A stretch of 64,000 bases of DNA from Microbacterium sp. LWH13-1.2 (lineage in GTDB: Bacteria > Actinomycetota > Actinomycetes > Actinomycetales > Microbacteriaceae): positions 1,674,001 through 1,738,000 of the forward strand of contig NZ_CP151635.1 in NCBI RefSeq assembly GCF_038397735.1, written 5' to 3'. The notes beneath the pieces are model-generated. The model made no database searches. It was not told where the DNA came from and saw only the letters and a program-made list of their open reading frames with translations. Below, one piece after another: positions 22,039 through 37,698 of this stretch (position 1 is the first letter of the stretch; each line of letters begins with the position of its first letter). The position numbers were made by a program, and so were the translations under genes.

Positions 22039-22066
22039 CGTCACAAATCCAGCTCGTGGCTGGTCA
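22039..22066 (+). promoter_or_regulatory. ECF41-type promoter, site 1
   Basis: CGTCACA (22039-22045), exactly 16 nt, GGTCA (22062-22066). It lies about 55 bp before the SDR gene at 22121. The -35 is close to TGTCACA and the -10 shares GTC with the CGTC published for ECF41 sigma factors. Confidence 0.75.
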
Positions 22067-22120
22067 CCTCTAATGACAGGGCCGCAACATACTTCGGGCC
22101 CGCGCATCGAAAGGAACAGC

Positions 22121-22873
22121 ATGAGAATCGTAGTCATCGGAGGATCCGGCTTGATCGGAGCCAAGCTCGTGGAACTCCTCAAGAATGCCGGGCATGACGT
22201 CATTGCAGCGTCCCCATCCACTGGCGTCAACACGCTCACTGGCGCGGGCGTCCGTGAAGCATTCACCGGCGCAGACGTCGTCGTGGATATCCCGAACTCG
22301 CCGTCTTTCGAAGACGAGCCCGTCATGAACTTCTTCCAGACCTCGACACGCACTATCGCTGAGGAGGCTGAGCGCGCCGGCATCGGCCACCACGTGGTGC
22401 TCTCCATCGTCGGAGCCGACCGAATTCCCGACATCGGCTACATGCGCGCGAAGGTCGCTCAGGAGGAGATCGTCAAAAAGGGAGCAACTCCGTACACGAT
22501 CGTCCGCGCCACTCAGTTCTTCGAGTTCATCGCCGGAATCGCTGAGGGCACGGCAGACGAGACGACCGTTCGGTTGTCGCCGGTGCTGATGCAGCCCATC
22601 GCGGCTTCAGACGTTTCCGCCGCCCTCGCAGAGGTCGCCACGAAGGCGCCCACCAACAGCACCTGGGAACTCGCCGGACCGGAAGCATTTCCGATCGTAG
22701 AACTGGGCCGTCGCGTACTCGCCGACGCCGGAGACAACCGTGAGATCGTCGTCGACCCCACGATCGGCTACTTCGGCGGAAACGTGAACGACCAGTCCCT
22801 GACCCCGGGCAACGACCCCGCTCTCTCATACCGACTGGCCGAAACAACCCTCGACGCGTGGCTCGCGCGCTGA
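22121..22873 (+). CDS. NmrA-like SDR (NAD(P)-binding) oxidoreductase, paralogue 1
   Basis: A 250-aa atypical short-chain dehydrogenase with a Rossmann fold. The nucleotide-binding loop is GGSGLIG at residues 7-13. The signature TGVNTLTG and the block VVDIPNSPSFEDEPVMNFF are shared with three other island paralogues. HHVVLSIVGADRIP and RATQFFEFI are also conserved among them. It lacks the classical YxxxK arrangement, as NmrA-like proteins often do. The start is ATG 22121, with AAAGGAAC upstream. The substrate is unknown. An ECF41-type promoter precedes it, and the COE pattern of ECF41 targets (carboxymuconolactone decarboxylase, oxidoreductase, epimerase) fits this gene. Confidence 0.85.
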   Translation: MRIVVIGGSGLIGAKLVELLKNAGHDVIAASPSTGVNTLTGAGVREAFTGADVVVDIPNSPSFEDEPVMNFFQTSTRTIAEEAERAGIGHHVVLSIVGADRIPDIGYMRAKVAQEEIVKKGATPYTIVRATQFFEFIAGIAEGTADETTVRLSPVLMQPIAASDVSAALAEVATKAPTNSTWELAGPEAFPIVELGRRVLADAGDNREIVVDPTIGYFGGNVNDQSLTPGNDPALSYRLAETTLDAWLAR

Positions 22874-22895
22874 CCACGAATCGATCGGCGTAGAA

Positions 22896-23318
22896 ATGGA
22901 AAATGACATGACAGACAACAACGACCTCGTTGACAGCTCGAAGGAACCCATCATCACGATGCTGGCCACCGTTCCGGGGCCGCACATCCCTGAGCCTGCC
23001 GAGGTGATGACGATCCTCGTCACCTCTCCCCCTGGCAGCCCTGGAACGCCCCCTCACCGACACAGCGGCCCGGCCTTCGGGTACGTCATCGAGGGCGCGG
23101 TGACGTTCGAACTCGAGGGCGAGCCGGTTCGGGTCGTGCGCGCCGGCGAAACCTTCTGGGAACCGGGTGGCGACCTCATCCACTACCAGGACGGCAACCA
23201 CCTTGCTGACGAGACCACACGGTTCGTCGTCACCATGTTCGGAGTCCCCGGTGAACCGATGCTGACCTTCGTCACGGCAGAGGAACTCGAAGAACGCCGA
23301 CACCTCAGGATCACCTGA
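22896..23318 (+). CDS. Cupin-domain protein
   Basis: A 140-aa single-domain cupin. The metal motif 1 region is PPHRHSGPAFGYVIEGAVTF, with two His and a Glu-rich strand. Motif 2 is less canonical, around EPGGDLIHYQDGN. Such proteins may be small dioxygenases, isomerases or ligand sensors; the activity is not deducible. ATG 22896 and ATG 22908 are both possible starts. It follows SDR paralogue 1 after 22 nt and is probably in the same ECF41-driven transcript. Confidence 0.8.
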   Translation: MENDMTDNNDLVDSSKEPIITMLATVPGPHIPEPAEVMTILVTSPPGSPGTPPHRHSGPAFGYVIEGAVTFELEGEPVRVVRAGETFWEPGGDLIHYQDGNHLADETTRFVVTMFGVPGEPMLTFVTAEELEERRHLRIT

Positions 23319-23323
23319 GTCTC

Positions 23324-23812
23324 ATGCGGCGGGAACGACTCACGAGTCAGATGAGCTTGACTCTCACGGGGCGCCGACTGATCCTGTGGCTGCTTTCGCT
23401 CTTCGCTGCTGCTATCGGCGCCTGGTCGCTGCTGTTCCCGGCGGAATGGTATGACACGTTCCCTGACGGCTCGGCCTCGTGGGGGTTCGGTCAGTGGATC
23501 CTGACGGATGGCCCCTTCAACGAACACCTGATCCGTGACGTCGGCGCGATGTACCTTGCTCTAGCCGGTGGAGGCATCGTCGCGGCACTCTCGAAGAGCG
23601 TCACCGCGACCCGCACAATGGCGGTGGCTTGGATCGTGTTCTCCGCTCCTCACCTCGTCTACCACTTGCAGCATCTGCACGGACTGCCCACGATCGACTT
23701 GATCGGTGAACCGATCTCCCTCGCACTGACGCTGGTTCTTCCGCTGTTCCTCCTCGGTCCCGAGCGCACCAGACGCCAACCCGTCACCCAGGCAAAGGAA
23801 GTACCTCGATGA
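23324..23812 (+). CDS. Small four-helix membrane protein of unknown function
   Basis: A protein of 162 aa (or 153 aa from ATG 23351) with about four hydrophobic segments: LILWLLSLFAAAIGAWSLLF, YLALAGGGIVAALS, MAVAWIVFSAPHLVYHL and ISLALTLVLPLFLL. A conserved-looking HLVYHLQHLHG lies between helices 3 and 4. I do not recognise a family. It follows the cupin gene after 5 nt, and its stop overlaps the next ATG, so it is part of the same transcript. Confidence 0.7.
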   Translation: MRRERLTSQMSLTLTGRRLILWLLSLFAAAIGAWSLLFPAEWYDTFPDGSASWGFGQWILTDGPFNEHLIRDVGAMYLALAGGGIVAALSKSVTATRTMAVAWIVFSAPHLVYHLQHLHGLPTIDLIGEPISLALTLVLPLFLLGPERTRRQPVTQAKEVPR

Positions 23813-24029: not shown

Positions 24030-24241
24030 CCTGCAGTTCAGCCGTCTACCGACACGCGCCGGGACCTCGCGAAGTCGTCATCGAACCCATCGCCAGCCAG
24101 ATAGCGGAAACCTTCAATCCCCGACTGCGGGCACAGCCCGCTCTGGCGCACGAGAGGCTCGTCAACATCCTGGTGAGGATCTGGCATGGGTCATGCGCGG
24201 TATTGGCCGCAGGCTGAGGGGAATCATTCATTGGAGGTGCC
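24030..24241. other. Gap with a possible gene remnant before the SDR-XRE operon
   Basis: A 212-bp stretch with no complete gene. One plus-strand frame reads REVVIEPIASQIAETFNPRL, which looks protein-like but has no family I can name. It may be debris of the same deletion that destroyed the preceding SDR. GGAGG at 24234-24238 serves the next gene. Confidence 0.35.
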
Positions 24242-25246
24242 GTGAAGGCGATAAGAGATGTGCCCGTTCCCGACCTGACCGGGAAGGTGGCGGTCGTGAC
24301 GGGAGCGAGCGATGGCATCGGACTCGGCATCGCGGTGCGGCTCGCGAGAGCTGGCGCGGAGTTGGTACTCCCGGTTCGGAACCCGGCGAAGGGGGCCCGG
24401 GCCCTGGAGGTGGTCGCGGCCAGGGCTCCCGGCTCTGTGGCGAGCACTCGCGAGCTTGATTTGGCTTCACTATCGTCAGTGAAGCATCTCAGTGAGACCC
24501 TTCTCTCGGAAGGGCGTCCGCTGCACCTGTTCGTGGCGAACGCGGGGGTGATGACGCCACCAGAGCGCACACTTACGACCGATGGATTCGAGTTGCAGTT
24601 CGGCACGAACCATCTAGGGCACATGGCATTGATCGGCCGCGTCCTGCCGCTGCTTCAGATGGGGGAGGCACGCGTCACCACCATGTCGAGTTCGGCAGCA
24701 GCGCAAGGCGCGACGGACTGGGATGACCTCGCTCGTGCCAATCGCTATAAAGCGATCCGTTCCTATTCCGCCTCGAAGCTTGCCCAACTCATGTTCGCGA
24801 TGGAACTGGATCGAAGGAGTCAGGAGCTCGGGTGGCGGATATCCAGCAATGCTGCACACCCCGGCACGACCTACAGCAACCTTTACGCGTCCGGTCCGAA
24901 TCTGGGGCGTACCAAGCCGTCACCGATCGATGGGATCTTCCGCAGGCTCTCCACCATCGGCGTCTTCGTGCAGTCGGTCGACTCCGGGCTGCTGCCGGCT
25001 CTGCATGCTGCGGTGTCACCCGACGCAGAAGGTGGACGCTACTACGGGCCTGACGGGCTGGGCCAGTTCACCGGGAGCGCGAAGGAGTTGAAGCTGCCTC
25101 GGCGGGCGAATGCACACAGCGACGCGGCGCGGCTCTGGGCTTTGTCTGAAGAGGTGACAGGTGTGACCTTCCCGCCCGCAGCGAGCTCCGCCAGCTCCGA
25201 CGACACGGGAGGCCGACCCTCAGACCCGAGAAGAGGGAGACGATGA
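24242..25246 (+). CDS. Classical short-chain dehydrogenase/reductase
   Basis: A 334-aa SDR of the retinol-dehydrogenase-like type. The cofactor loop is TGASDGIG near residue 20. The NAG motif is NAGVM, the catalytic Ser lies in TMSSSAA and the active-site pair is YSASK (YxxxK). It is longer than a minimal SDR because of a C-terminal extension with YYGPDGLGQFTG. The start is GTG at 24242 with GGAGG 3 nt upstream. Its stop overlaps the ATG of the next gene, so this enzyme and the XRE regulator are translationally coupled. The substrate is unknown. Confidence 0.88.
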   Translation: MKAIRDVPVPDLTGKVAVVTGASDGIGLGIAVRLARAGAELVLPVRNPAKGARALEVVAARAPGSVASTRELDLASLSSVKHLSETLLSEGRPLHLFVANAGVMTPPERTLTTDGFELQFGTNHLGHMALIGRVLPLLQMGEARVTTMSSSAAAQGATDWDDLARANRYKAIRSYSASKLAQLMFAMELDRRSQELGWRISSNAAHPGTTYSNLYASGPNLGRTKPSPIDGIFRRLSTIGVFVQSVDSGLLPALHAAVSPDAEGGRYYGPDGLGQFTGSAKELKLPRRANAHSDAARLWALSEEVTGVTFPPAASSASSDDTGGRPSDPRRGRR

Positions 25247-26076
25247 ACGATCGGCCGCAGCTTTCGAAGTTCCTTCGGGCGCGCCGAGAATCGATCCAGC
25301 CGGAAGACGTGGGGATGCCCCGCGGCCCGCGTCGGCGGACCAGCGGACTACGCCGTGAGGAAGTCGCCGCCCTCAGTGGCATCTCAAGCGACTATTACAG
25401 CAAGATCGAGCAGCACGACGGCCCAGTGCCGTCGCAGCAGATCCTCGCATCGATCGCACGAGGCATCCAACTGAACCTCGACGAACGCGACCACCTGTTC
25501 CGACTTGCCGGATACACGGCCACGTCCCGTGCGGTCCGAAACGAGCACGTGAATGCGGGCCTCATGCGAGTGCTGAACCGCCTCGGAGACACCCCCGCAC
25601 AGGTGGTCACGATGCTCGGCGAAACGCTCGTGCAAACCCGGCTGGCGGTTGCCCTGCTTAGCGACGAAACCTCCTACACGGGTCTACGCCGCAACCGGAT
25701 CTACCGTTGGTTCACCGACCCTGACGAGCGTGCTCTGACTCCGGTAGAAGATCACGAGCGGCACTCCGCGACCCTGGTCGGTCACCTGGTCGCCGCAAGC
25801 ACTTCTGCCTCCCTGGCGGACCCCGCGCGCATTCTCATCTCCCGCCTTCGCAGGGCCAGTCCGGAGTTCGCGGCCCTATGGGAGTACCAACCCGTTCCCG
25901 GACCGTACTGCGAAGCCACGCGCATCCTGCACCCCGAGGTCGGCGAGGTCGAGCTCTACGGCCAGACCATCCTCGACCCCGATCAGTTCCAGGCCCTGAT
26001 GATCTTCACCGCTGAGCCTGGCAGCCCCAGCGCCGAGAAACTGGAGCTCCTCTCAGTCATCGGCGTCCACCCGTGA
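25243..26076 (+). CDS. XRE-family regulator with MmyB-like ligand-binding domain
   Basis: A 277-aa transcription regulator. The N-terminal helix-turn-helix (RTSGLRREEVAALSGISSDYYSKIEQ) is the hallmark of this actinobacterial family. The C-terminal PAS-like MmyB domain (about residues 110-270) is thought to bind a fatty-acid-like ligand and contains RNRIYRWFTDPDER. Genes of this type usually control an adjacent oxidoreductase, here the overlapping SDR. No operator could be recognised. Confidence 0.88.
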   Translation: MNDRPQLSKFLRARRESIQPEDVGMPRGPRRRTSGLRREEVAALSGISSDYYSKIEQHDGPVPSQQILASIARGIQLNLDERDHLFRLAGYTATSRAVRNEHVNAGLMRVLNRLGDTPAQVVTMLGETLVQTRLAVALLSDETSYTGLRRNRIYRWFTDPDERALTPVEDHERHSATLVGHLVAASTSASLADPARILISRLRRASPEFAALWEYQPVPGPYCEATRILHPEVGEVELYGQTILDPDQFQALMIFTAEPGSPSAEKLELLSVIGVHP

Positions 26077-26085
26077 CTTCGACGT

Positions 26086-26116
26086 TTGACCTGGAGTGCA
26101 CTCCAGGGTGCACGAT
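26086..26116 (+). promoter_or_regulatory. MerR-type promoter with perfect 16-bp operator
   Basis: A -35 TTGACC (26086-26091) and a -10 CACGAT (26111-26116) are separated by an over-long 19-nt spacer. The spacer contains the palindrome CTGGAGTGCACTCCAG (26091-26106). The long spacer and central dyad are the classic arrangement activated by MerR-family regulators through DNA untwisting. The -10 ends 6 nt before the ATG at 26123, so the transcript is leaderless. Confidence 0.85.
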
Positions 26117-26122
26117 GTGATC

Positions 26123-26542
26123 ATGGCTGCCGTCACACTCCCGACTGTCGATATCGACATACCCGAGGGCGGGCTGCCCATCAGCGCGGTTGCGCGGGCC
26201 ACCGGGTTGAGTATCGACACACTCCGCTACTACGAGGGTGCCGGGCTGCTGCTGAATCCCGCACCGCGTGACCACGGCGGCCGGCGCCGGTACGGCCAGA
26301 ACGACGTGGATTGGATCGCCGGCTTGATCATGCTCCGTGAGACCGGCATGAGCATCGCCGATATACGACGGATGGCCGAGCTCAGCCGCATCGACGGCAC
26401 AGAGGCGGAGCGGCTCATAGTGCTCGAGCAGCACCGGCTTCACGTTCTCGCGAAGCTCGACAGAACCCGCGCGCACCTCGCAGCACTCGAATCGAAGATC
26501 GCCGCATATTCCGAAGCATCAACCAAAGAAGGATCATCATGA
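26123..26542 (+). CDS. MerR-family transcriptional regulator
   Basis: A 139-aa regulator. The N-terminal winged helix contains ISAVARATGLSIDTLRYYEGAGLL, followed by RRRYGQNDVDWI. The C-terminal dimerization coiled coil runs through LEQHRLHVLAKLDRTRAHLAALESKI. There is no Cys cluster for metals, so an organic or electrophile signal is more likely. The ATG at 26123 is fixed by the MerR-type promoter; the in-frame GTG at 26096 lies inside the operator. It overlaps the aldo/keto reductase gene by 4 bp and probably activates its own operon. Confidence 0.9.
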   Translation: MAAVTLPTVDIDIPEGGLPISAVARATGLSIDTLRYYEGAGLLLNPAPRDHGGRRRYGQNDVDWIAGLIMLRETGMSIADIRRMAELSRIDGTEAERLIVLEQHRLHVLAKLDRTRAHLAALESKIAAYSEASTKEGSS

Positions 26543-27537
26543 CACTTTCGACACCTCTACCGACCGCTGCCCTCGGAGACGGCCTGCGGGTCTCGGCCAT
26601 CGGCTTGGGCGCCATGGGCATGAGCGCTTACTACGGAACCAGCGACGAGAAAGAATCGATCGCCACACTCCGCCATGCCGTCGACACCGGCGTGACTTTC
26701 ATTGACACCGCCGAGGCATACGGCCCGTTTGAGAACGAGAAGCTCATCTCGCGCGCGCTGGGCGACCGCCGTGATGAAGTCACGCTCGCAACCAAGGCCT
26801 CCGCAGAGACCGACGACGATGGCACCATCCACGGCCGGAACGGTACTCCCGCCTATATCCGCAAGGCGGCAGAACGGTCCCTGCGCCATCTTGGCACCGA
26901 GGTCATTGACCTGTACTACCTCCACCGAGTTGACCCGGACGTCCCCATCGAGGAGAGCGTCGGCGCGATGTCCGAGCTCGTGACCGAAGGCAAAGTGCGG
27001 CACATCGGCTTGTCCGAAGCATCGGAGGCCACCATTCGACGCGCACACGCCGTGCATCCGCTCGCTGCGGTGCAGTCGGAATTCTCTCTCTTCGCCCGCG
27101 ATGTGCTGCACAACGGCGAACTGGCCGCTCTGCGCGAACTCAACATCGGTTTCGTGGCGTTCTCGCCACTGGGTCGTGGATTCCTGACGGGAGAAATTCG
27201 CTCAGTGCACGATCTTGATCCCGCGGACGCTCGCCTGGGCCTTCCCCGGTTCCAGCCCGAAGCCATCGCCGCGAACTTGGCGCTCGTCGATCGGGTGAAT
27301 GCGATCGCTTCCGAGAAGGGAGTCACCAACGCGCAGATCGCCTTGGCATGGCTGATCGCGCAAGGGGTGGTGCCGATCCCCGGCACCCGTCGGCGCAACC
27401 GACTCGACGAGAACACCGCCTCAGTGCGTGTCCGTCTCGACGACGCCGACCTCGCTCGGCTCAGCGCGGCGCTGCCCGACGAACAGATCGTGGGCACGCG
27501 CGACTATGTCGCGCACGCAGACGGTGTGGATCGATGA
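26539..27537 (+). CDS. Aldo/keto reductase
   Basis: A 332-aa NADPH-dependent reductase of the YhdN/AKR13 type with a TIM barrel. The catalytic tetrad is visible: Asp56 in FIDTAEAYG, Tyr61, Lys86 in LATKA and His129 in YYLHRVD. The C-terminal cofactor site is PIPGTRRRNRLDENT. Such enzymes reduce aldehydes, ketones or quinones. It overlaps the MerR gene as ATGA, a common pairing in which the regulator senses the carbonyl or electrophile that the reductase removes. Confidence 0.92.
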   Translation: MTLSTPLPTAALGDGLRVSAIGLGAMGMSAYYGTSDEKESIATLRHAVDTGVTFIDTAEAYGPFENEKLISRALGDRRDEVTLATKASAETDDDGTIHGRNGTPAYIRKAAERSLRHLGTEVIDLYYLHRVDPDVPIEESVGAMSELVTEGKVRHIGLSEASEATIRRAHAVHPLAAVQSEFSLFARDVLHNGELAALRELNIGFVAFSPLGRGFLTGEIRSVHDLDPADARLGLPRFQPEAIAANLALVDRVNAIASEKGVTNAQIALAWLIAQGVVPIPGTRRRNRLDENTASVRVRLDDADLARLSAALPDEQIVGTRDYVAHADGVDR

Positions 27538-27565: not shown

Positions 27566-27593
27566 CGTCACAACGACGACACGCGTCCGGTCA
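27566..27593 (+). promoter_or_regulatory. ECF41-type promoter, site 2
   Basis: CGTCACA (27566-27572), 16 nt, GGTCA (27589-27593), about 55 bp before the SDR gene at 27649. Both elements are identical to site 1. Confidence 0.75.
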
Positions 27594-27648: not shown

Positions 27649-28425
27649 ATGTCCAGAATCGTTGTCATCGGAGGCACCGGCCTCATCGGCTCCAAGGTTG
27701 TCTCAAAGCTCACTGAGCACGGCCACGACGCTATCTCGGCCACACCCAACTCGGGCGTGAACACCCTGACCGGAGAGGGACTGGCCGAGGTGCTGGTCGC
27801 CGCCAACACCGTGCTCGATGTGTCGAACTCGCCTTCGTTCGCCGATGACGACGTGATGAACTTCTTCACGACCGCCACCAGCAACACCATTGCCGCCGCG
27901 AAGGCCGCAGGGGTTAGCCACTACGTCGCCCTTTCCGTCGTCGGTGCCGAGCGGATGGTCGACAGCGGTTACATGCGCGCGAAGGTCGCGCAGGAGAAGC
28001 TCATCAAGGACTCCGGTATCGCCTACTCGCTGGTGCACGCGACCCAGTTCTTCGAGTTCGTGAAGAGCATCGCCGACAGCGCCACCGTCGACGGCGTCGT
28101 GCACCTGTCCCACGCCCTGATTCAGCCGATGGCGGCGGAGGACGTCGCGACCGCGGTGGCACGCACCACCGCAGGCGAGCCGCTGAACCGGACCATCGAG
28201 GTCGCCGGCCCCGATCGGTACAGCCTGGACGACCTCATCCGCACAGGCCTCGCCTTCCGCGGGGACACGCGGACCGTCGTCGCCGACCCCGATGCCACCT
28301 ACTTCGGCGAGAAGCTCACCGCCGAGATGCTTCTCCCCGGCCCCGACGCCACACACTTCGACACCCACTTCGAGGAGTGGCTGCCCGCGAACCCCGCCCC
28401 GGCAGCGCCGGCCGCTTCGAAGTAG
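27649..28425 (+). CDS. NmrA-like SDR oxidoreductase, paralogue 2
   Basis: A 258-aa Rossmann protein and close paralogue of the SDR at 22121. The nucleotide loop is GGTGLIG. Shared blocks are SGVNTLTGEGL, LDVSNSPSFADDDVMNFF, ALSVVGAERM, YMRAKVAQEKL and ATQFFEF. The C-terminal YFGEKLTAEMLLPG also matches the other island paralogues. It is driven by ECF41-type site 2. A carboxymuconolactone decarboxylase-family gene starts 1 nt after its stop, giving the oxidoreductase-plus-CMD pairing known for ECF41 targets. The substrate is unknown. Confidence 0.87.
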   Translation: MSRIVVIGGTGLIGSKVVSKLTEHGHDAISATPNSGVNTLTGEGLAEVLVAANTVLDVSNSPSFADDDVMNFFTTATSNTIAAAKAAGVSHYVALSVVGAERMVDSGYMRAKVAQEKLIKDSGIAYSLVHATQFFEFVKSIADSATVDGVVHLSHALIQPMAAEDVATAVARTTAGEPLNRTIEVAGPDRYSLDDLIRTGLAFRGDTRTVVADPDATYFGEKLTAEMLLPGPDATHFDTHFEEWLPANPAPAAPAASK

Positions 28426-28426
28426 C

Positions 28427-28900
28427 ATGCCGACCGTGTCCGCTTCGGACCACCTCGACTCCGCGGTTCCGGCCGCCTACCAGGCGCTCATCGCCGCCGG
28501 TAAGGCGGCCGGCCTCGCCGCCCGCGACGCGGGACTCGACCCGCTGGTTGTTGAGCTCGTTCGCATCCGATCGTCGCAACTTAATGGCTGCGCATTCTGC
28601 CTCCGCATGCACACAAGGGATGCATTTGCTCACGGCGAGACCAGCGACCGCCTCGCCGTGCTCCCGGCATGGCGAGACTCCCGCTACTTCACGGCCGTCG
28701 AACGTGCAGCACTGGCCGTCGCCGAAGAGGTCACACTCATCGCTGATCAGCAGACAGGACGCCGGTTCCTCCGAAGCGACGGTGACGTCGAGCAGCAGGT
28801 GCTCACCCCCGACCAGCTAGCGGCGGTCCGCTGGTTGACCATCGTCATCAATGCCTTCAACCGCATCGCGATCCTCAGCCACTACGACGTCGCACCGTAG
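28427..28900 (+). CDS. Carboxymuconolactone decarboxylase / AhpD-like protein
   Basis: A 157-aa all-helical protein of the CMD/AhpD family. The redox motif is Cys55-x2-Cys58 in NGCAFCLRMHTRDA, with His62 completing the AhpD-like active site. Such proteins act as thiol-dependent peroxidase partners or lactone decarboxylases; the CxxC-H motif favours a redox role. The ATG at 28427 lies almost against the SDR stop, so the two are co-transcribed from ECF41-type site 2. Confidence 0.9.
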   Translation: MPTVSASDHLDSAVPAAYQALIAAGKAAGLAARDAGLDPLVVELVRIRSSQLNGCAFCLRMHTRDAFAHGETSDRLAVLPAWRDSRYFTAVERAALAVAEEVTLIADQQTGRRFLRSDGDVEQQVLTPDQLAAVRWLTIVINAFNRIAILSHYDVAP

Positions 28901-30489: not shown

Positions 30490-31209
30490 TCAGCGATACT
30501 CGGGATTCGCGCTCAGGCCAAAGCGTTCTCCGCTGTCCCACGCCCCTCGAAGATTTCCCCACGCGGGGATACCGCCAGCTGCTCGAAGCATGCTGGCCAT
30601 GTGCATCAGGTTCCAGGTCATAAACGTCACATTTCGACGAGTGAAGTCATTCTCCGGACCTCCGGAACCTGGGTCCAAGTAGCTCGGTCCGGGACCGATC
30701 TCGCCTATCCAGCCCGCGTCGGCACCTGGAGGTATGACGCATCCCACGTGTTGGAGGCTGTACAGGATTGAAGCGGATGCGTGCTTGACCCCGTCTTCAT
30801 TGCCGGTGATGATCGCGCCGCCAGTCTTCCCGTAGTAGACATACTGACCTTGGGCATTGTATTCGCCGCTCATCGCGTAGAGGCGTTCGATGAGTTTGCG
30901 AGTGACCGATGCGTTGTCCCCGAGCCACAAAGGCCCGCCAACGACGAGGATGTCGGCGGCCTTGATCGCCGGCCATACGTCGGTGAGCCACTCATCGCTC
31001 GCCCAGCCGTGTTCGCGCATATCGGGGTAGACACCCGGAGGCACGTCAAAGTCGACGAAGCGAAGCGTTTGCACCTCGACACCATGGGATCTCATCAGGT
31101 CGACACTGAGGTCCATGAGTCCTTGGGTGTTACTCACCTGCGGACTTGGTTTGAGAGTGCAATTAACGAAGACGGCACGCAACCCGCTGAAATCAGGCCC
31201 GCCGCTCAT
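30490..31209 (-). CDS. Flavodoxin-fold NADPH-dependent FMN reductase-like protein
   Basis: A 239-aa flavoprotein-like fold. Strand 1 and the phosphate loop are AVFVNCTLKPSPQVSNTQ. A central VVGGPLWLGDNASVTRKLIERL and GGAIITGNEDG follow, matching the FMN-reductase/NAD(P)H oxidoreductase family. The C-terminal tail GAWDSGERFGLSANPEYR is typical of the actinobacterial subgroup. It likely transfers electrons from NAD(P)H via FMN to quinones or other acceptors. ATG 31209 overlaps the stop of the UBP-zinc-finger gene, so the two are coupled and share ECF41-type site 6. Confidence 0.87.
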   Translation of the reverse strand: MSGGPDFSGLRAVFVNCTLKPSPQVSNTQGLMDLSVDLMRSHGVEVQTLRFVDFDVPPGVYPDMREHGWASDEWLTDVWPAIKAADILVVGGPLWLGDNASVTRKLIERLYAMSGEYNAQGQYVYYGKTGGAIITGNEDGVKHASASILYSLQHVGCVIPPGADAGWIGEIGPGPSYLDPGSGGPENDFTRRNVTFMTWNLMHMASMLRAAGGIPAWGNLRGAWDSGERFGLSANPEYR

Positions 31210-31565
31210 CGTTGTTTCGCCGCCTGCGCGCGCCAGTCTGCCGGAAGCCGACTCGCGGGGCCGGGCGCTGCCTGATCGAGGGGATGGCTCAACGGTGGCG
31301 CCAGAACGACCGGCTCGGCGTAGCTGTCGCTCCGGTAGTCCCAGAACCAGTCCTCGCCCGGCTCGAAGCTTGCGATGACGGGATGGCCGGTCTGAAGGAA
31401 GTGCGCCGTCGCGTGCTGACCGGGCGAATTGTTGCAGCAGCCAACATGACCGCAGGCAGCGCACCGGCGCAGATGCACCCACCAGCTGCCTTCCGCATCG
31501 CACTGCACACACACATTTCCCGACGGCGGGACCGTCGGGTCGACAATTGAGAGATCCATGGTCAT
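31206..31565 (-). CDS. UBP-type zinc-finger protein
   Basis: A 119-aa protein consisting mainly of a ZnF-UBP domain. The zinc ligands are visible in VCVQCDAEGSWWVHLRRCAAC, GHVGCCNNSPGQHATAHF and TGHPVIAS. The aromatic segment GEDWFWDYRSD follows. In eukaryotes this fold binds the ubiquitin C-terminus; in bacteria its role is unknown and no ubiquitin is present. ATG 31565 or 31559 is possible. It is the first gene of the operon with the flavodoxin-like reductase, downstream of an ECF41-type promoter, which suggests the two proteins work together in redox stress. Confidence 0.86.
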   Translation of the reverse strand: MTMDLSIVDPTVPPSGNVCVQCDAEGSWWVHLRRCAACGHVGCCNNSPGQHATAHFLQTGHPVIASFEPGEDWFWDYRSDSYAEPVVLAPPLSHPLDQAAPGPASRLPADWRAQAAKQR

Positions 31566-31708
31566 GAGCCAGCCTTCGCTGCGGTGCCCGCCGGGGCAGG
31601 TCGCGTTTGCATGAGATCCAGACTGGACAGCCCGCCGGTGCGGGTTTCGCTGATAGTCACTGCGACTTTCCTCTCTCACCGAGCTGAGGCGCGGTGGGTC
31701 ATGAGATA

Positions 31709-31736
31709 AGACCGAACAACTGCAACTTGTGTGACA
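31709..31736 (-). promoter_or_regulatory. ECF41-type promoter, site 6
   Basis: On the minus strand TGTCACA (31736-31730), 16 nt, GGTCT (31713-31709). It lies between the end of the first sigma gene and the UBP-zinc-finger gene, with a leader of about 135 nt. Confidence 0.75.
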
Positions 31737-31764: not shown

Positions 31765-32676
31765 CTACAGCGCCAGGGGCACGGAGGGCGCAATCGGTGC
31801 GAGCTTCTCGGGATTCATCACCCAGAAAATTTCTTGCACCGAGCCCACGCGGGCGGAGACCGTGAGGAGCGCGAACGGCTTTCCTGCTCGGTACAACAGG
31901 GCACTGTCGTGGCCGTTCGCCTCGACGATTTCGATGGTCACATCACCCCAGAACCACGTCGAGACGCCGACGAGGAATCGAATGAGCGTCTCCCGCCCGC
32001 AGATAGGTCGCCTGGCGGTGCGATGAACCACACCGCCGCCGTCGGTGTAGCTCACAGCGTCGGCAGCGAGAAGCTTCTCTAGCTCCGTTGCGTCTCCCCC
32101 CTGGGCTGCGTCGAGAAACGTGCGGAAGAGTCGTTTCTGTTCTTCTCGGCTGCTCACGTGCACAGCATCCGTCGACAGATGCTTTCGTGCCCTGCTGACC
32201 AGCTGGCGGGCAGAAGCTTCCGTTGTGCTGAGGATGTCCGCGATCTTCGCGTAAGGGTAGGTGAACGCTTCCCGGAGCACATATGCCGCGCGTTCGGTAG
32301 CAGTGAGTCGCTCCATGAGGAACAAGGTGGCGAGCTCGAGTGCCTCAGATCGTTCAGCTCCGAGCATCGGATCGTCTGAGGTATCGACGGGCGTCGGCAA
32401 CCACGAACCGACATAGGTTTCGCGTCGAGAACGGGCACTGTTGAGGACGTTGATGGCGAGGCGCGTGGTGGTTGTCGCGAGAAAAGCGGCGGGGTTTCGC
32501 ACCGTTGCCTGATCGCACAGTTGCCATCGAATCCACGTGTCCTGCACGACATCCTCCGCTTCAAAAGCGCTGCCGAGAATCCGATAGGCGATGCCGAACA
32601 ATCGCCGACGCTGAGTGACGAAGGCCATCAGCGACTCGTCATCTGAGTCGTACACGTATTGCTGTTGCGGGTTCAT
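31765..32676 (-). CDS. ECF41-family RNA polymerase sigma factor with SnoaL-like C-terminal domain (1)
   Basis: A 303-aa sigma factor. Region 2 (about 18-85) contains RLFGIAYRILGSAFEAEDVVQDTWIRW, and region 4 (about 120-168) contains AERAAYVLREAF and ASARQLVSRARKHL. A fused SnoaL-like domain follows (about 180-295). The three ECF41 hallmarks are present: WLPTP (92-96), DGGG (212-215) and NPEKL (288-292). In ECF41 the C-terminal domain replaces an anti-sigma factor and controls activity. I start it at ATG 32676 with AGGAAC upstream. It lies 122 bp downstream of an SDR gene that has an ECF41-type promoter, suggesting positive feedback. Confidence 0.93.
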   Translation of the reverse strand: MNPQQQYVYDSDDESLMAFVTQRRRLFGIAYRILGSAFEAEDVVQDTWIRWQLCDQATVRNPAAFLATTTTRLAINVLNSARSRRETYVGSWLPTPVDTSDDPMLGAERSEALELATLFLMERLTATERAAYVLREAFTYPYAKIADILSTTEASARQLVSRARKHLSTDAVHVSSREEQKRLFRTFLDAAQGGDATELEKLLAADAVSYTDGGGVVHRTARRPICGRETLIRFLVGVSTWFWGDVTIEIVEANGHDSALLYRAGKPFALLTVSARVGSVQEIFWVMNPEKLAPIAPSVPLAL

Positions 32677-32798: not shown

Positions 32799-33575
32799 TC
32801 AAGCCGTGATGTCTTCAACGACTTCCGGGGTCTGAATGCGCCAGTCGTGGTACCTCCGCTGAGCAATCGAGGCTGTGGCCTCCGGAAGAAGGTCACGGCT
32901 CGCGAGTCGAGCACCGAAATAGGTCCCGAGCGGGTCGGGCACGACTTCCCGCTCGTCCTGGCGGAAGCTCAGATCCATCACCGCCAGGTCCTTGAGACTG
33001 AAGACCTCCGGGCCACCGAACTCCACCATCCCGTAGAGCGGCTGCCCGAGCGACGTGTCAACGACAGCCCGTGCGACATCGTCGGCTGCCATGGGCTGCA
33101 CCAGCACATCGGCGACCCGGACGGCCCCGCCGCGCACCGCATGGTCGGTGATGCTGCGAATGAATTCGAAGAACTGAGTCGCGTGTACGAGCGAGTATGG
33201 GCGGTGAGACTCGATGATGAGCCGTTCCTGCTGCTGTTTCGCGACGAAGTACCCGCCTTCGGCACGGGCCAGACGATCGGTGCCGACGACGGAAAGGGCG
33301 ACATGGTGCCCTACGCCGGCTGCTTCCCCGTAGCTGAGCAGGTTCATGGTGGAGGTGTAGAAGAATTCTTGCGCCCCCGCTTCGTCCGTGTAAGAGGAGT
33401 TCGACACGTCGACCAGAACGTCTGCACCTGTCAGCGCGTCTTCCAGCCCCTCCCCCGTGAAGGAGTTGACGCCCGTGGAGCGGGCGGCGACGAGAACGTC
33501 GTGCCCGGATGCCCTCAGCTGACGGACGACCCTCGCTCCGATCAAGCCTGTTCCACCGATCACCGTGATTTTCAT
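32799..33575 (-). CDS. NmrA-like SDR oxidoreductase, paralogue 3
   Basis: A 258-aa Rossmann protein. The nucleotide loop is GGTGLIG. Paralogue signatures are TGVNSFTGEGL, LVDVSNSSYTDEAGAQEFF, ALSVVGTDRLARAEGGYF, KQQQERL and ATQFFEFI. The end YFGARLASRDLLPE resembles paralogue 2. ATG 33575 has AGAGGGG upstream. It is driven by ECF41-type site 3 and followed by sigma factor 1 on the same strand, so enzyme and sigma gene probably form one transcription unit. Confidence 0.87.
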   Translation of the reverse strand: MKITVIGGTGLIGARVVRQLRASGHDVLVAARSTGVNSFTGEGLEDALTGADVLVDVSNSSYTDEAGAQEFFYTSTMNLLSYGEAAGVGHHVALSVVGTDRLARAEGGYFVAKQQQERLIIESHRPYSLVHATQFFEFIRSITDHAVRGGAVRVADVLVQPMAADDVARAVVDTSLGQPLYGMVEFGGPEVFSLKDLAVMDLSFRQDEREVVPDPLGTYFGARLASRDLLPEATASIAQRRYHDWRIQTPEVVEDITA

Positions 33576-33627: not shown

Positions 33628-33655
33628 AGACCAGGCGCCCGCCCTGTTTGTGACA
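33628..33655 (-). promoter_or_regulatory. ECF41-type promoter, site 3
   Basis: On the minus strand TGTCACA (33655-33649), 16 nt, GGTCT (33632-33628). It drives SDR paralogue 3 and probably sigma factor 1. Its -35 lies 33 bp from that of the divergent site 4. Confidence 0.78.
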
Positions 33656-33688: not shown

Positions 33689-33716
33689 CGTCACACCCGC
33701 TCGAGCTACACGGTCT
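33689..33716 (+). promoter_or_regulatory. ECF41-type promoter, site 4
   Basis: CGTCACA (33689-33695), 16 nt, GGTCT (33712-33716). It drives the two alpha/beta hydrolase genes and is back-to-back with site 3. Confidence 0.78.
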
Positions 33717-33784: not shown

Positions 33785-34738
33785 ATGGTCGATCACACCC
33801 TGGAGCCGGATGCACGAGCATTCGCGGACGCCACCTCGAAGCCGCCGTATCTCACCAACCTCGGCGTCGATGGCGCCCGCGAGCTGTTAGACCAAGTTCA
33901 AGCGTCCCCGACCGCAAAACCCGACATCGATGAGGAATGGATCTCTGTCCCCGCCGACGTCGGTCAGGTGCGAGTGCGCATCGTCAAGCCGGTTGGCTCC
34001 GCTGCGGCGCTGCCGGTTGTCCTCTACGTGCATGGCGGCGGGTGGGTGCTCGGCAACGCTGGCACCCATGATCGGCTGGTGAGAGAGATCGCTGTCGGCG
34101 TCAACGCAGCGATAGTGTTCGTCGAGTATGACCGGTCCCCGGAAGTGCGCCACCCCGTCGCCGTCGAACAGGTATACGCGACCGCGCGCTGGATCATGAA
34201 CGAAGGCGCAACGAAGGGCCTGGACGCGTCTCGTCTCGCGATCGCCGGCGATTCCGTCGGTGGAAACATGGCCGCTGTTGTCGCGATCCTTGCGAAGCGG
34301 CGTGGCGACGTCACCTTCATTCACCAGTCGCTGTACTACCCCGTCACCGATGCGGGCCAGGACACTGACAGCTACCGTGAGTTTGCTGAAGGATTCCACC
34401 TGCGCGCTGATGCGATGGCGTGGTTCTGGGACAGCTATCTGCCGGATCTTGACGCTCGCAAGGACGTCACCGCGTCGCCGTTGCAGGCTTCCGTTGACGA
34501 TCTCAGGGGACTGCCGGAGACGCTCCTCGTGGTCGATGAGAACGATGTCCTTCGCGACGAAGGCGAGGCATACGGACGAAAGCTCATCGAGGCGGGAATC
34601 CGCGCGACCCTCGTCCGCTACGACGCCACAATCCACGACTTCATGATGCTCAATCCGCTACGGACCTCAGCCGCAAGCACGGCGGCGATTGAGCAGGCCG
34701 TGCGGACCCTCCGCCAAGCCTTCGCCACCGCAAACTAG
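33785..34738 (+). CDS. Alpha/beta hydrolase, hormone-sensitive-lipase type
   Basis: A 317-aa esterase-like protein of the HSL family. The oxyanion-hole motif HGGG is at residues 83-86 (YVHGGGWVLGN). The nucleophile is Ser157 in GDSVGG, the acid is probably the Asp in LVVDENDVLRDEG and the His is in ATIHDFMMLN. A cytoplasmic location is expected, since no signal peptide is present. It is the first gene after ECF41-type site 4 and is followed 24 nt later by a second hydrolase. Likely substrates are short acyl esters or lactones, but none can be named. Confidence 0.88.
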   Translation: MVDHTLEPDARAFADATSKPPYLTNLGVDGARELLDQVQASPTAKPDIDEEWISVPADVGQVRVRIVKPVGSAAALPVVLYVHGGGWVLGNAGTHDRLVREIAVGVNAAIVFVEYDRSPEVRHPVAVEQVYATARWIMNEGATKGLDASRLAIAGDSVGGNMAAVVAILAKRRGDVTFIHQSLYYPVTDAGQDTDSYREFAEGFHLRADAMAWFWDSYLPDLDARKDVTASPLQASVDDLRGLPETLLVVDENDVLRDEGEAYGRKLIEAGIRATLVRYDATIHDFMMLNPLRTSAASTAAIEQAVRTLRQAFATAN

Positions 34739-34762
34739 CCCATTTCGAAGAAAGTGAAGATC

Positions 34763-35503
34763 ATGACCGACTTGAAGCCCACCATCGTCCTCGTTCACGG
34801 CGCCTTCGCCGAATCTGCCTCGTGGAACGGGGTTATCACCCGTCTGCAGGAACAGGGGCTCGACGCAGTCGCTGTCGCGAACCCGCTGCGTACGCTCGCC
34901 GGCGACGCTGCCTACGTCCGCGATGTCATCACCTCCATCCCCGGGGCCGTCATCCTCGTAGGTCACTCGTACGGCGGCCTGGTGATCACTGAAGCTGCAG
35001 CCGACAACGACGCCGTCGTCGGTCTCGTATATGTGTCCGCCTTCGTCCCTGATACCGGGGAGAGTGCGCTCTCGCTGTCGTCCAGCGCGCCGGGAAGCAC
35101 TCTCGGAGACGCGCTTTCTGTGTACCCGGTCACAACCGGAGGCAACGAGTTCGCTATCCGTCCGGACGTATTCCGGCACCAGTTCGCCGCAGATGTGGCA
35201 GAGGATGTTGCGGCACTCATGGCCGCAACTCAGCGACCTGTGACCGAAGCCGCGCTCTCCGAGACGCTTTCCACGTCGCGTCCGGCCTGGAAGGACGTGC
35301 CCTCCTGGCACGTGTTCGGCGAGCAGGATCTGAATATTCCAGTTGCAGTGCTGCGGGCTGGTGCCGAGCGCGCTGCCTCGCGGGCAACACACGAGATCAG
35401 CGGAGCATCACACGCTGTCCCCGTTTCCAACCCCGGTGTCGTCGCCGAGATGATCACTAAAGCAGAGCAGGCCTATGCCGCGACCTTGGAGGGCGCCGCA
35501 TAG
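34763..35503 (+). CDS. Alpha/beta hydrolase, EstC-like
   Basis: A 246-aa hydrolase of the type seen in hydroxynitrile lyases and actinobacterial esterases. IVLVHGAFAESASWNGVI carries the oxyanion hole. The nucleophile is Ser69 in GHSYGG, the acid lies near the VFGEQDLNIPV segment and the His is in ISGASHAVPVS. I start it at ATG 34763; an in-frame GTG at 34754 is also possible. It is in the same transcript as the preceding HSL-type hydrolase, downstream of ECF41-type site 4. Confidence 0.87.
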   Translation: MTDLKPTIVLVHGAFAESASWNGVITRLQEQGLDAVAVANPLRTLAGDAAYVRDVITSIPGAVILVGHSYGGLVITEAAADNDAVVGLVYVSAFVPDTGESALSLSSSAPGSTLGDALSVYPVTTGGNEFAIRPDVFRHQFAADVAEDVAALMAATQRPVTEAALSETLSTSRPAWKDVPSWHVFGEQDLNIPVAVLRAGAERAASRATHEISGASHAVPVSNPGVVAEMITKAEQAYAATLEGAA

Positions 35504-35523: not shown

Positions 35524-35551
35524 TGTCACAGATCGATGCACTGTCCGGTCT
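35524..35551 (+). promoter_or_regulatory. ECF41-type promoter, site 5
   Basis: TGTCACA (35524-35530), 16 nt, GGTCT (35547-35551), about 57 bp before the SDR gene at 35608. Sigma factor 2 follows that gene. Confidence 0.78.
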
Positions 35552-35607
35552 GAACTTGAGTAGGGCTTTCTGCGTGCACGGCGCAAGCCCGGAACGGAGC
35601 GGGCGAG

Positions 35608-36378
35608 ATGCGAATCGTTGTATTGGGCGGAACCGGCCAAGTTGGCCGGAAGATCGTCGAAAAGCTCGAACGAAGAGCTCAGGCCGTTGTCGTTGCTTCA
35701 CCGACCAGCGGGGTGGACGCGAGAACCGGACGCGGGCTCGACGCCGCGCTCGAATACGCCGACGCGGTGATCGATGTGACCAATGCTCCCGATCTCTCCG
35801 GAGATGCGGCGCGGGAGTTCTTCGAGGCCAGCACTCACCGGTTGCTGGAAGCCGAAGAACGCGCCGGCGTGAAGCACCATGTGGTCCTCTCGATCGTCGG
35901 GGCCGATCACGCAGGTGAAGACGGTTACTTTGCGGCAAAGGGTCTCCAGGAACGGCTTGTACAATCGGGGCCGATCGCTCACTCCATCCTGCGATCGACT
36001 CAGTTCTTCGATTTTGCTCGCAGCATCGCCGAATGGAACACCGCCCAGGACACGGTGCATCTACCCGCGAAGCGCGTTCAACCGGTCGCGTCGTCGGATG
36101 TCGCGGAAGTTCTCGTGGAACTGGCGATGGGAGATCCGCTGGGCGGCGCCATTGACTTCGCCGGCCCGGAGCAGATGCCCCTGCCCGAGTTCGTGCACCG
36201 CGTGCTGCGGGTCGACCACGATCCGCGCTACGTCATCGAAGATGCGGAGACCACCCTCGTGGGCTTCAACGTCTCCGGAGATCTCCTCCTCCCCCGCTCA
36301 CCCATGCGCCTTGCACCCACCACGCTGGAATCTTGGGTGCACCAAGAAGGACAGCGGAAGCTTTCAGGAGTCCGTTGA
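35608..36378 (+). CDS. NmrA-like SDR oxidoreductase, paralogue 4
   Basis: A 256-aa Rossmann protein, the most divergent of the four paralogues. The nucleotide loop reads GGTGQVG. Equivalent blocks are TSGVDARTGRGLDAALEYAD, VIDVTNAPDLSGDAAREFF, LSIVGADH, YFAAKGLQERL and STQFFDFARSI. It is driven by ECF41-type site 5. The sigma factor 2 gene begins 7 nt after its stop, so the two are co-transcribed, mirroring paralogue 3 and sigma factor 1 on the opposite strand. Confidence 0.87.
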   Translation: MRIVVLGGTGQVGRKIVEKLERRAQAVVVASPTSGVDARTGRGLDAALEYADAVIDVTNAPDLSGDAAREFFEASTHRLLEAEERAGVKHHVVLSIVGADHAGEDGYFAAKGLQERLVQSGPIAHSILRSTQFFDFARSIAEWNTAQDTVHLPAKRVQPVASSDVAEVLVELAMGDPLGGAIDFAGPEQMPLPEFVHRVLRVDHDPRYVIEDAETTLVGFNVSGDLLLPRSPMRLAPTTLESWVHQEGQRKLSGVR

Positions 36379-36385
36379 GGTGGGA

Positions 36386-37303
36386 ATGGAAGACGTGACA
36401 GCTACAAATCCTGATCATCCCAGCAGAAGCGGTGACCTCGCCGCTGCCGTCCAGGTCTTCGACGCGCATCGTCGGCGCCTGTTCGGCATCGCATACCGGA
36501 TGTTGAGCAGCGTGGCTGATGCAGAAGACATCGTTCAGGAGACGTGGATCCGGTGGCAGAACACCGATCGGACACAGATTCAGGAGCCCGTCGCGTTCCT
36601 GGCCACGATAGCGACCAGGCTCTCGATCAACGTCCTGCAGTCAGCGCACGCACGACGTGAGACCTACATCGGGCCGTGGCTCCCGGAGCCGGTCAACACG
36701 GATAACGACCCAGCTCTCGGCGCCGAGCGCGCCGAAGCGTTGCATTTCGCGATCCTGCTAACCCTCGAGAAGCTGACCCCGACCGAGCGGGCAGCGTACA
36801 TTCTGCGCGAAGCATTCGACTATCCCTACCCGCGCATCGCTGAGGTGATCTCCAGCAGTGTCGTCAGCGCTCGACAACTCGTCAGCAGAGCACGCACGCA
36901 CCTGTCCTCGGCCCGCGTTGTGACAGTAGACACGATCGCGCAGCGCCGATTGCTGGAAGCCTTCCTCGTCGCTGCGCAAAAAGGCGACGCCAAAGAACTC
37001 GAAGCACTCTTCGCATCCGACGTCGTGAGCTACACAGACGGGAACGGCGCGAAGCTCGCTGCCCGCATCCCTGTCATCGGAAGTGCACGGGTAGCGAAGT
37101 TCGTCGCGGCGTTCTCGCACCACTTTTGGACTGACAAGACAATCGGCTGGGTTCATGTCAACGGTCAACCCGCCGCAACACTTACAGAGAACGGCACGGT
37201 GACCGCCATGGTGACAGCGACAACAACGAACGACGGCATCCTTCAACTTCTCTGGGTGATGAGCCCGCAGAAGCTCGGACATGTCACCGCGGCCAGCGCA
37301 TGA
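36386..37303 (+). CDS. ECF41-family RNA polymerase sigma factor with SnoaL-like C-terminal domain (2)
   Basis: A 305-aa sigma factor paralogous to the one at 31765. Region 2 contains RLFGIAYRMLSSVADAEDIVQETWIRW and region 4 contains AERAAYIL-like and SARQLVSRARTHL segments. The ECF41 linker motif WLPEP (98-102) is exact. The second motif is TDGNG (217-221) and the third is SPQKL (293-297), a decayed form of NPDKL. I start it at ATG 36386, since upstream in-frame codons overlap the SDR gene. It is preceded by SDR paralogue 4 under an ECF41-type promoter and overlapped by a stand-alone SnoaL-like gene. Confidence 0.92.
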   Translation: MEDVTATNPDHPSRSGDLAAAVQVFDAHRRRLFGIAYRMLSSVADAEDIVQETWIRWQNTDRTQIQEPVAFLATIATRLSINVLQSAHARRETYIGPWLPEPVNTDNDPALGAERAEALHFAILLTLEKLTPTERAAYILREAFDYPYPRIAEVISSSVVSARQLVSRARTHLSSARVVTVDTIAQRRLLEAFLVAAQKGDAKELEALFASDVVSYTDGNGAKLAARIPVIGSARVAKFVAAFSHHFWTDKTIGWVHVNGQPAATLTENGTVTAMVTATTTNDGILQLLWVMSPQKLGHVTAASA

Positions 37304-37698
37304 CTCGCAAGCACTACCCGGCGTGGTTGCGCCGGAGGCGTCGTGGTGCCGCTGACGAAGCCACGATGAAGGAACTTGCGATCGCGCTGACGTCGAGCGA
37401 TCAAAATGCGCTCCAGGAACTGCTCCACCGTGATGTCGTCTTGGTCATCGACAGCGGCGGCCACGTCCCCAACGTCGCCGAACCCATCGAGGGGCAGGCA
37501 GCGGCTTCCGCACAGCTGCTCAGCCTGGTGACGTCGGGCACGTCCGCCGCGATGGCCTCGATCAACAGCGTGCCCGGGTTCACTCTCATCCGTGACAAAA
37601 AGGTCGTCGGAGCGGTCACGGCCGAGATGCGATCGAGGCTGTTGGCCACCGTCTGGGTTGTGTGCAACCCAGACAAGCTTCGCCACTGGAATCGGTGA
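37300..37698 (+). CDS. Stand-alone SnoaL-like protein with ECF41 C-terminal motifs
   Basis: A 132-aa protein with a basic N-terminus (RKHYPAWLRRRRR), then a SnoaL/NTF2-like region. DSGG at 51-54 corresponds to the DGGG motif of ECF41 sigma factors, and NPDKL at 123-127 (VVCNPDKLRHWNR) is the exact ECF41 C-terminal motif. It contains no sigma regions 2 or 4. The ATG overlaps the sigma factor 2 stop as ATGA, so the two proteins are made together. I infer a regulatory or complementing role toward the sigma factor; an unrelated enzyme of the SnoaL fold is the alternative. Confidence 0.75.
   Translation: MTRKHYPAWLRRRRRGAADEATMKELAIALTSSDQNALQELLHRDVVLVIDSGGHVPNVAEPIEGQAAASAQLLSLVTSGTSAAMASINSVPGFTLIRDKKVVGAVTAEMRSRLLATVWVVCNPDKLRHWNR

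Follow-up and report, generated by a model that had tools for sequence, protein, structure and literature searches.

A predicted multi-promoter ECF41 regulon and a stand-alone SnoaL-like partner protein in Microbacterium and other Actinobacteria

Extracytoplasmic function (ECF) sigma factors of the ECF41 group have been surveyed, with the conclusion that they generally control one transcript and have no separate anti-sigma factor (Wecke et al., 2012; PMC3426412; here and below, statements on published work refer to the accessible portions of the texts). In Microbacterium sp. LWH13-1.2, a stretch of 64,000 nucleotides (contig NZ_CP151635.1, positions 1,674,001 to 1,738,000; here called the window) contains an island of genes in which two ECF41 sigma genes lie close to six copies of a promoter-like element. 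This raises the question whether all six copies serve the sigma factors encoded beside them and, further, what the role is of a small SnoaL-like protein encoded directly after the second sigma gene. From sequence comparison, the six sites are predicted to be promoters to which the ECF41 sigma factors encoded in the island direct RNA polymerase, and to form a coordinated regulon, a reading to which we assign a probability of about 0.84.

The element and its predicted target genes

The element YGTCACA-N16-GGTCW occurs six times in the window (22039+, 27566+, 31709-, 33628-, 33689+ and 35524+), which confirms the positions, strands and constant spacing of 16 nucleotides (nt) claimed by the initial annotation. 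In 100 dinucleotide shuffles of the window the mean was 0.02 sites, and six were reached in none. When the gap in GTCACA-Nk-GGTC was varied from 5 to 39 within the window, k = 16 gave six matches and any other k gave none or one. The whole genome (3,771,418 bases, one contig) contains seven matches to the element, six of them in the island; the seventh lies inside an opposite-strand open reading frame (ORF) that appears MerR-like by eye. A chance origin of the sites was rejected on the basis of the shuffles, the genome count, the spacing scan and the control over 198 genomes described below.

By the gene calls of this analysis all six sites are intergenic, and each points at a gene. A logo of 122 sites suggests that transcription starts 10 nt past the C of GGTC; with this start point the leaders of five sites are 46, 47, 44, 60 and 48 nt long, the earlier estimate having been about 45 to 62 nt. 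A 32-amino-acid ORF between the site at 31709(-) and the zf-UBP gene would explain why this site seems remote from its gene: the distance is 135 nt to the zf-UBP start and 40 nt to the start of the small ORF, which begins 49 nt past the GGTC of the predicted promoter. The features of the island are as follows.

22039..22066, +, predicted ECF41 promoter CGTCACA-N16-GGTCA (motif match, logo)
22121..22873, +, NmrA-like short-chain dehydrogenase/reductase (SDR; NAD_binding_10, Pfam), start codon 55 nt past the site
22908..23318, +, cupin protein, probably on the same transcript as the SDR at 22121 (from spacing)
23351..23812, +, DUF4345-like protein, below the Pfam cut-off, possibly on the same transcript
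27566..27593, +, predicted ECF41 promoter (motif match)
27649..28425, +, NmrA-like SDR (Pfam)
28427..28900, +, carboxymuconolactone decarboxylase (CMD)/AhpD-type protein, adjoining the SDR 3' end (Pfam, NCBIfam)
31709..31736, -, predicted ECF41 promoter (motif match)
31562..31660, -, candidate 32-amino-acid leader ORF, GTG at 31660, good ribosome-binding site, stop overlapping the zf-UBP ATG
31206..31565, -, UBP-type zinc-finger protein (Pfam)
30490..31209, -, NADPH-dependent FMN reductase family (PF03358, Pfam), start overlapping the zf-UBP stop
33628..33655, -, predicted ECF41 promoter, divergent from that at 33689 (motif match)
32799..33575, -, NmrA-like SDR (Pfam)
31765..32676, -, ECF41 sigma factor 1 (ECF41-1; NPEKL, linker YVGSWLPTP), probably cotranscribed with the upstream SDR
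33689..33716, +, predicted ECF41 promoter (motif match)
33785..34738, +, alpha/beta hydrolase (Abhydrolase_3, Pfam)
34754..35503, +, alpha/beta hydrolase (Abhydrolase_6, Pfam)
35524..35551, +, predicted ECF41 promoter (motif match)
35608..36378, +, NmrA-like SDR (Pfam)
36386..37303, +, ECF41 sigma factor 2 (ECF41-2; SPQKL, linker YIGPWLPEP; Pfam, NCBIfam)
37300..37698, +, stand-alone ECF41 C-terminal (SnoaL/NTF2-like) protein, motifs DSGG and NPDKL, 4-nt overlap of its start with the sigma stop

As proposed before, a site precedes each of the four NmrA-like SDR paralogues, and the remaining targets are the hydrolase pair and the UBP zinc-finger operon. The name "flavodoxin" for the gene at 30490-31209 was replaced by the NADPH-dependent FMN reductase family, and the CMD/AhpD-type gene was added to the target set. 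A sequence search with one of the island SDRs against solved structures gave no match at E 1e-5.

Operon membership in the island was assigned from gene spacing, and both cotranscription and recognition by these sigma factors are predictions. Under this assignment, the promoter at 33628(-) would start the SDR followed by ECF41-1, and that at 35524(+) would start the SDR, ECF41-2 and the stand-alone SnoaL protein. Published ECF41 operons place a gene of the COE group (carboxymuconolactone decarboxylase, oxidoreductase or epimerase) before the sigma gene, with the promoter on the COE gene; following this order, the sigma genes should be autoregulated and would amplify their own expression. The other four promoters would drive the SDR-cupin, SDR-CMD and zf-UBP/FMN-reductase operons as well as the hydrolase pair, and the outcome would be a single coordinated local redox or detoxification response.

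Both sigma factors belong to ECF41 by their domain and model features. Both exceed the Pfam cut-offs for sigma region 2 and region 4, and both carry, judged by length and alignment, the fused SnoaL/NTF2-like C-terminal extension, for which the Pfam SnoaL_2 match is weak and below cut-off in ECF41-2 and not listed for ECF41-1. The SigJ model NF007214 is passed by both proteins (288.8 and 271.1 against a cut-off of 271), in line with the earlier assignment of the two genes, and TIGR02957 is passed by ECF41-2 (337.8 against 323.25), ECF41-1 falling short by 0.15 bit. The position of NPDKL reads NPEKL in ECF41-1 and SPQKL in ECF41-2, where the Asn is lost, and the WLPEP linker reads YVGSWLPTP and YIGPWLPEP, respectively. 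COE targets, namely SDRs of the epimerase class and the CMD, are present nearby. Two published features are not matched: the first -10 base is never C in the 150 sites with spacing 16 described below, and the island has six predicted promoters instead of a single target. The residues of region 2 that differ between the sigma clades have been listed.

Recurrence in Microbacterium and in other genera

ECF41-1 was used as a query against 198 Microbacterium genomes, its own included, and a close relative (at least 48% identity) was found in 46 of them. Many others hold, among the matches listed (a limit that also applies to the following genome-wide counts), only distant ECF41 genes of at most 44% identity. 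The 46 genomes with a close relative contain 149 sites (mean 3.24) against 15 for a reversed-pattern control (mean 0.33), and the 152 genomes without one have a mean of 0.63 against 0.27. At least three sites occur in 28 of the 46 and in 3 of the 152. For the 45 relatives, 96 of 142 sites fall within the 0.90 Mb of fetched loci, out of approximately 172.6 Mb. The comparison suggested by the initial annotation, namely enrichment over control patterns, upstream position and recurrence in relatives, was thus made, and it came out in favor of the promoter proposal.

Loci were fetched around 50 close relatives of the island sigma factors and around 10 other ECF41 genes. When any first -10 base was allowed, the 50 loci gave 150 matches at spacing 16 and two to eight at each other spacing from 12 to 20; the first base was G in 121, T in 28, A in one and C in none. 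The -35 box with its 16-nt spacer is of the ECF41 type in the window and in these 50 loci. At least one GGTC site is present in 49 of the 50, and with G and T sites counted together, 31 loci have at least three. The 10 other loci gave 11 matches, eight with TGTC, each after GG, three with C and none with G. The predicted -10 element of this actinobacterial sigma branch is C(G/T)GTC, one base off the published CGTC. As a separate observation, another ECF41 clade of the genus (L093-L097, L099-L101) has TGTCACA-N14-GGTGTC sites, a different -10 element that could reflect an orthogonal specificity.

The logo of 122 sites from the 50 loci and the window shows an asymmetric two-box element, [T/C]GTCACA-N15-CGGTC[A/T], in which C precedes GGTC in 90%, T is found in 77% at 9 nt past the first G and a purine in about 90% at 10 nt past the C. 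The first gene past the site encodes an NmrA-type SDR in 61 cases, an ECF41 sigma factor in 22, a hydrolase of type ABH3 in 11 or ABH6 in 7, a classical SDR, a CMD or a SnoaL-like protein in two each, zf-UBP in one and an unrecognised product in 14. In six loci (L062:7501, L066:8007, L071:7651, L050:6536, L051:8236, L044:10031), a GGTC site stands before an unrecognised family with a motif like LNSAVGTELFVLQSVASSTISEAG near its start. A start codon lies 40 to 75 nt downstream of 92 of the 122 sites, compared with 244 of 1500 random positions and 36 of 100 decoys of other spacing, a control that is impure because many decoys appear to share their -35 box with a real site. For the 27 TGTC sites of these loci, 21 have a start codon in this range and 17 are followed by an NmrA-type SDR. 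Divergent site pairs number 31 in the 50 loci and the window.

A first scan of genome contigs with a single protein as query found nothing. An alignment of 18 sigma factors of this clade was searched against named genomes, and its best 80 loci were evaluated; these come from Microbacterium, Herbiconiux, Arthrobacter, Cryobacterium, Agromyces, Leifsonia, Amycolatopsis, Streptomyces, Mycobacterium and others, including two Acidobacteriaceae. The 60 loci outside Microbacterium gave 171 matches at spacing 16 (G 128, T 39, A 3, C 1), and other spacings from 10 to 22 gave 0 to 11, except for spacing 11 with 37. Of these 37, 29 are GTCACA-N11-TGTC (in the non-Microbacterium loci of L120-L182), which stands above the other off-spacings. 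Many of the 60 loci have one site or none. Whole-genome site searches, made for the genomes behind eleven of these loci, revealed among the matches listed clusters of 18, 17 and 14 sites in Streptomyces sp. RP5T (G199:C111), sp. or43 (G200:C68) and sp. NRRL F-5123 (G202:C15), with 0, 3 and 1 control matches genome-wide, respectively. The initial annotation had called such a clustered regulon unusual; this holds with respect to the published accounts, and the arrangement is not peculiar to the island, since it recurs in other Actinobacteria.

The 167 G or T sites of the 60 loci have, in 77 cases, a first gene without a match to the window proteins. Pfam scans of 18 chosen proteins from these loci revealed a flavoprotein of the fumarate reductase/succinate dehydrogenase type, a 4Fe-4S ferredoxin, a cytochrome b, a ferredoxin reductase-like protein and an oxidoreductase that is NDH-2-like by eye, together with two OsmC proteins, LtrA, WhiB, a ferritin-like protein, a cupin, a methyltransferase, an AMP-binding protein and a hydrolase; the rest were three sigma-like proteins of degenerate type, one of which matched nothing, and a small protein that likewise had no match. 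The theme of the predicted targets is redox, respiration and detoxification.

These data bear on two other explanations of the sites. As they recur before one set of genes, and as MerR and MLTR-type regulators are encoded inside the island, the sites might be operators of a DNA-binding repressor or activator. This appears very improbable, given that the element is asymmetric, that its gap is constant at 16 nt and its distance to the start codon tends to fall in one range, that its -35 box equals the published ECF41 box, that the number of sites follows this sigma clade across the 198 genomes and that clusters near a sigma gene are found again in other genera. Somewhat less improbable, and still unlikely, is that the sigma factors are ordinary ECF41 members using only the two SDR-sigma operons, the other four sites being relics of a duplication of SDRs along with their promoters. 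The four SDRs are indeed paralogues, and three ECF41 factors have one target each in the published tests (PMC3426412, PMC6180224). Nevertheless, sites also stand before the unrelated hydrolase, zf-UBP, CMD and cupin genes, in Streptomyces before ferredoxin, fumarate reductase-type and OsmC genes, and they are intact in many species, which speaks against relics, since these would not be expected to hold an exact spacing.

The proposal of a coordinated regulon has points against it as well, the single targets of the three tested factors being the first. Furthermore, the 152 genomes without a close sigma relative hold 96 sites (control 41; among the matches listed), one locus with a member of the clade (L048) is without any site, and the two sigma factors of the island cannot be separated by motif.

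The stand-alone SnoaL-like protein

The initial annotation was silent on the ORF following ECF41-2, whose product of 132 amino acids is a second, separate ECF41 C-terminal domain. In a profile search against the PDB, the best match of the partner, as it is called here, was the SnoaL domain of SigJ (E 9.4e-13), and ketosteroid isomerases were among the best structural matches of this NTF2-like protein. Pfam matches are sparse (SnoaL_2 in 9 and DUF4440 in 5 of 39 partners; for the window's own partner a weak RuvB_N match below cut-off), so that the SnoaL assignment rests on the SigJ profile match, the motifs and a tree.

In 39 of the 41 loci with a downstream partner, the last 4 nt of the sigma gene are shared with the beginning of the partner gene, an overlap from which the two genes are likely co-transcribed. 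The overlap, and the broken frames of the partner in L081 and of the sigma factor in L092, might suggest that a fused sigma gene was split by a frameshift or by an assembly error. This is hardly credible: L081 is the sole broken partner among the 41 loci, and the explanation is contradicted by the upstream sigma factor having a complete C-terminal domain of its own, the partner being a second one.

The Asn of NPDKL may hint at the function. In the compact form described in print (PMC7730460), NPDKL is said to hold the YVGPWLPEP linker and the SnoaL domain together, and partial truncations of the extension made two ECF41 factors approximately 20- and 120-fold more active in published work. Three short ECF41-1-type sigma genes (L075:7979-8770, L090:9045-9800, and L104 on the minus strand), whose C-terminal extension is cut or altered, resemble these hyperactive truncations. 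Among ECF41-2-type sigma factors with a readable end, S, A or T replaces the Asn in 45 of 46; the Asn is kept in 10 of 10 ECF41 factors of other clades and in 39 of 45 partner ORFs. A sigma factor that lacks the Asn and retains the linker, beside a partner that bears the Asn, suggests that the latch is supplied in trans by the partner.

This pattern was followed in a table of 131 deduplicated sigma factors (at least 395 bits), in which only an ORF of 95 to 190 amino acids that immediately follows the sigma gene counted as a partner; L122, L124 and L125, where the neighbour is full-length, are thus scored as having no partner. An adjacent partner is present for 62 of the 131, with the Asn in the partner only in 41, in the sigma factor only in 6, in both in 6, in neither in 7, and with 2 unreadable, one of which reads SAPKL (L163) and so has lost the Asn. 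For the 69 without an adjacent partner, the Asn is kept in 53, not kept in 13 and unreadable in 3. The 48 Microbacterium pairs, whose strong reciprocal pattern comes from sequences related to each other, divide into 40 partner-only, no sigma-only, one with both, six with neither and one unreadable.

From the protein sequences, the partner may be a regulatory domain of the ECF41 type, detached and acting on the sigma factor in trans, a proposal that we put at slightly short of even odds. Its NPDKL would take over the contact with the sigma linker YIGPWLPEP, as an inhibitor or as a co-factor, and a small-molecule or redox signal would alter this contact; the binding, its direction of effect and the signal are all predicted. 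With sites counted outside Microbacterium, 15 of 28 partner loci have at least three, as opposed to 3 of 29 loci without a partner (p 9e-6, a value that ignores kinship).

NTF2-like domains are often enzymes, and so the partner may be an enzyme. It would then be a SnoaL-type hydrolase or isomerase, a plain target gene without a regulatory role, which is rather doubtful and yet a serious possibility. Consistent with this are its NTF2-like fold with the ketosteroid isomerase matches, and SnoaL-like ORFs that have a site of their own (L082, L089). Arguing for a regulator are the best PDB profile match, which is to an ECF41 C-terminal domain, the ECF41-type motifs kept in the partner, the degenerate sigma domains retained by relatives of the same clade and the translational overlap with the sigma gene.

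The distribution weighs against the regulatory proposal. The fetched DNA of 6 of 55 Microbacterium and 29 of 57 other loci contains no partner-lineage ORF, which means that the partner is not obligatory, and outside the genus, where the enzyme explanation gains from this absence, the Asn pattern is mixed. The 14 pairs there comprise one partner-only, six sigma-only (seven with L163), five with both and one with neither. The reciprocal pattern is therefore found mainly in Microbacterium; Agromyces and Leifsonia show it reversed, and 6 of the 14 outside pairs do not show it. It was this weakness outside Microbacterium that lowered our odds for the regulatory domain and raised those for the enzyme to the levels given above.

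Relatives of the partner may point to its origin. Four Streptomyces loci have, after a GGTC site, a protein of 280 to 300 amino acids that aligns with ECF41 over its full length, with the WLPEP linker deleted and DGGGK and NPDKL intact; the sigma domains were below the Pfam cut-off or unscored in all three of these degenerate proteins that were scanned. In Arthrobacter sp. MSA 4-2, Herbiconiux ginsengi and Cryobacterium sp. N22, the neighbour of the sigma factor is a full-length version of the partner, with region 4 at 26.6 to 32.8 bits against a cut-off of 25.7 and region 2 below cut-off or missing. In a tree of 79 SnoaL domains, 34 partners (stand-alone, degenerate and full-length) were split from 45 sigma domains at 100/99, the rows being chosen by hand, with few columns, rough bootstrap values and a midpoint root only; 3 of the 29 listed partner rows were not found by name and were left out.

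These forms suggest that the partner would be a trans-acting regulator derived from a sigma factor. Its region 2 would have weakened first, then the linker would have been lost and then everything except the SnoaL domain, and meanwhile in Microbacterium the sigma factor's own NPDKL latch would have decayed, giving an anti- or co-sigma factor born from a sigma factor. That this actinobacterial ECF41 branch combines large clustered regulons with a trans-acting protein evolved from a second ECF41 sigma factor by stepwise domain loss is proposed tentatively, with a chance just below one half.

Known systems and the borders of the island

The published ECF41 features (Wecke et al., 2012; PMC3426412) are a -35 box TGTCACA, a -10 box CGTC, COE targets and COE-then-sigma operons. 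Like the factors of Bacillus licheniformis and Rhodobacter sphaeroides, those described here have sigma2 and sigma4 domains, a WLPEP linker (WLPTP in ECF41-1) and a C-terminal extension with conserved motifs, and they share the TGTCACA box, the 16-nt spacer, the COE targets and the operon order. In contrast to the published system, the -10 box is CGGTC, sometimes CTGTC, six promoters are clustered instead of one, the targets extend beyond COE genes, a second C-terminal domain is encoded separately and ECF41-2 has SPQKL in place of NPDKL. RpoE9 of Sinorhizobium meliloti (PMC6180224) is likewise an ECF41 factor with an adjoining CMD target, and differs by its single reported target. Given the single targets in print, the clustered multi-promoter regulon with a C(G/T)GTC -10 box would represent a new variant, judged within the open-licence literature. 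An Azospirillum ECF41 factor is said, by the title of the report, to control motility, which may bear on the single-target claim.

SigJ of Mycobacterium tuberculosis (PDB 5xe7) is the best solved sequence relative of the sigma profile and of the partner profile alike, and differs in being one fused protein. The ECF56 system SigG1-RsfG of Streptomyces tsukubaensis (PMC7730460) likewise has a SnoaL-fused ECF sigma factor, to which the product of a co-transcribed downstream gene binds. In the accessible text, RsfG is reported without a Pfam domain and SigG1 without NPDKL, whereas the downstream protein described here is an ECF41-type SnoaL domain.

If the clusters are real regulons, the single-transcript conclusion would fail for a large actinobacterial branch that includes Streptomyces. 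There, the predicted targets (fumarate reductase-type flavoprotein, cytochrome b, NDH-2-like protein, ferredoxin, OsmC) suggest a function in respiration and in electrophile or peroxide stress. Should the detached SnoaL protein prove to be a regulator, it would add a new type to the known regulators of sigma factors, and how it arose can be tested on its longer relatives in Arthrobacter, Herbiconiux, Cryobacterium and Streptomyces.

The island is flanked by a direct repeat:

19226..19959, left copy of the 734-bp direct repeat, from a comEC-like gene (named by eye)
38264..38997, right copy of the 734-bp repeat, a partial second gene copy, 89.6% identical

Its G+C content is 63.4%, compared with 67.3% and 68.6% on its flanks. 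The low G+C content together with the flanking repeat suggests that the island was acquired as one unit. Inside it, positions 25243-27537 encode the MLTR-type and MerR regulators and an aldo/keto reductase, which are without the motif.

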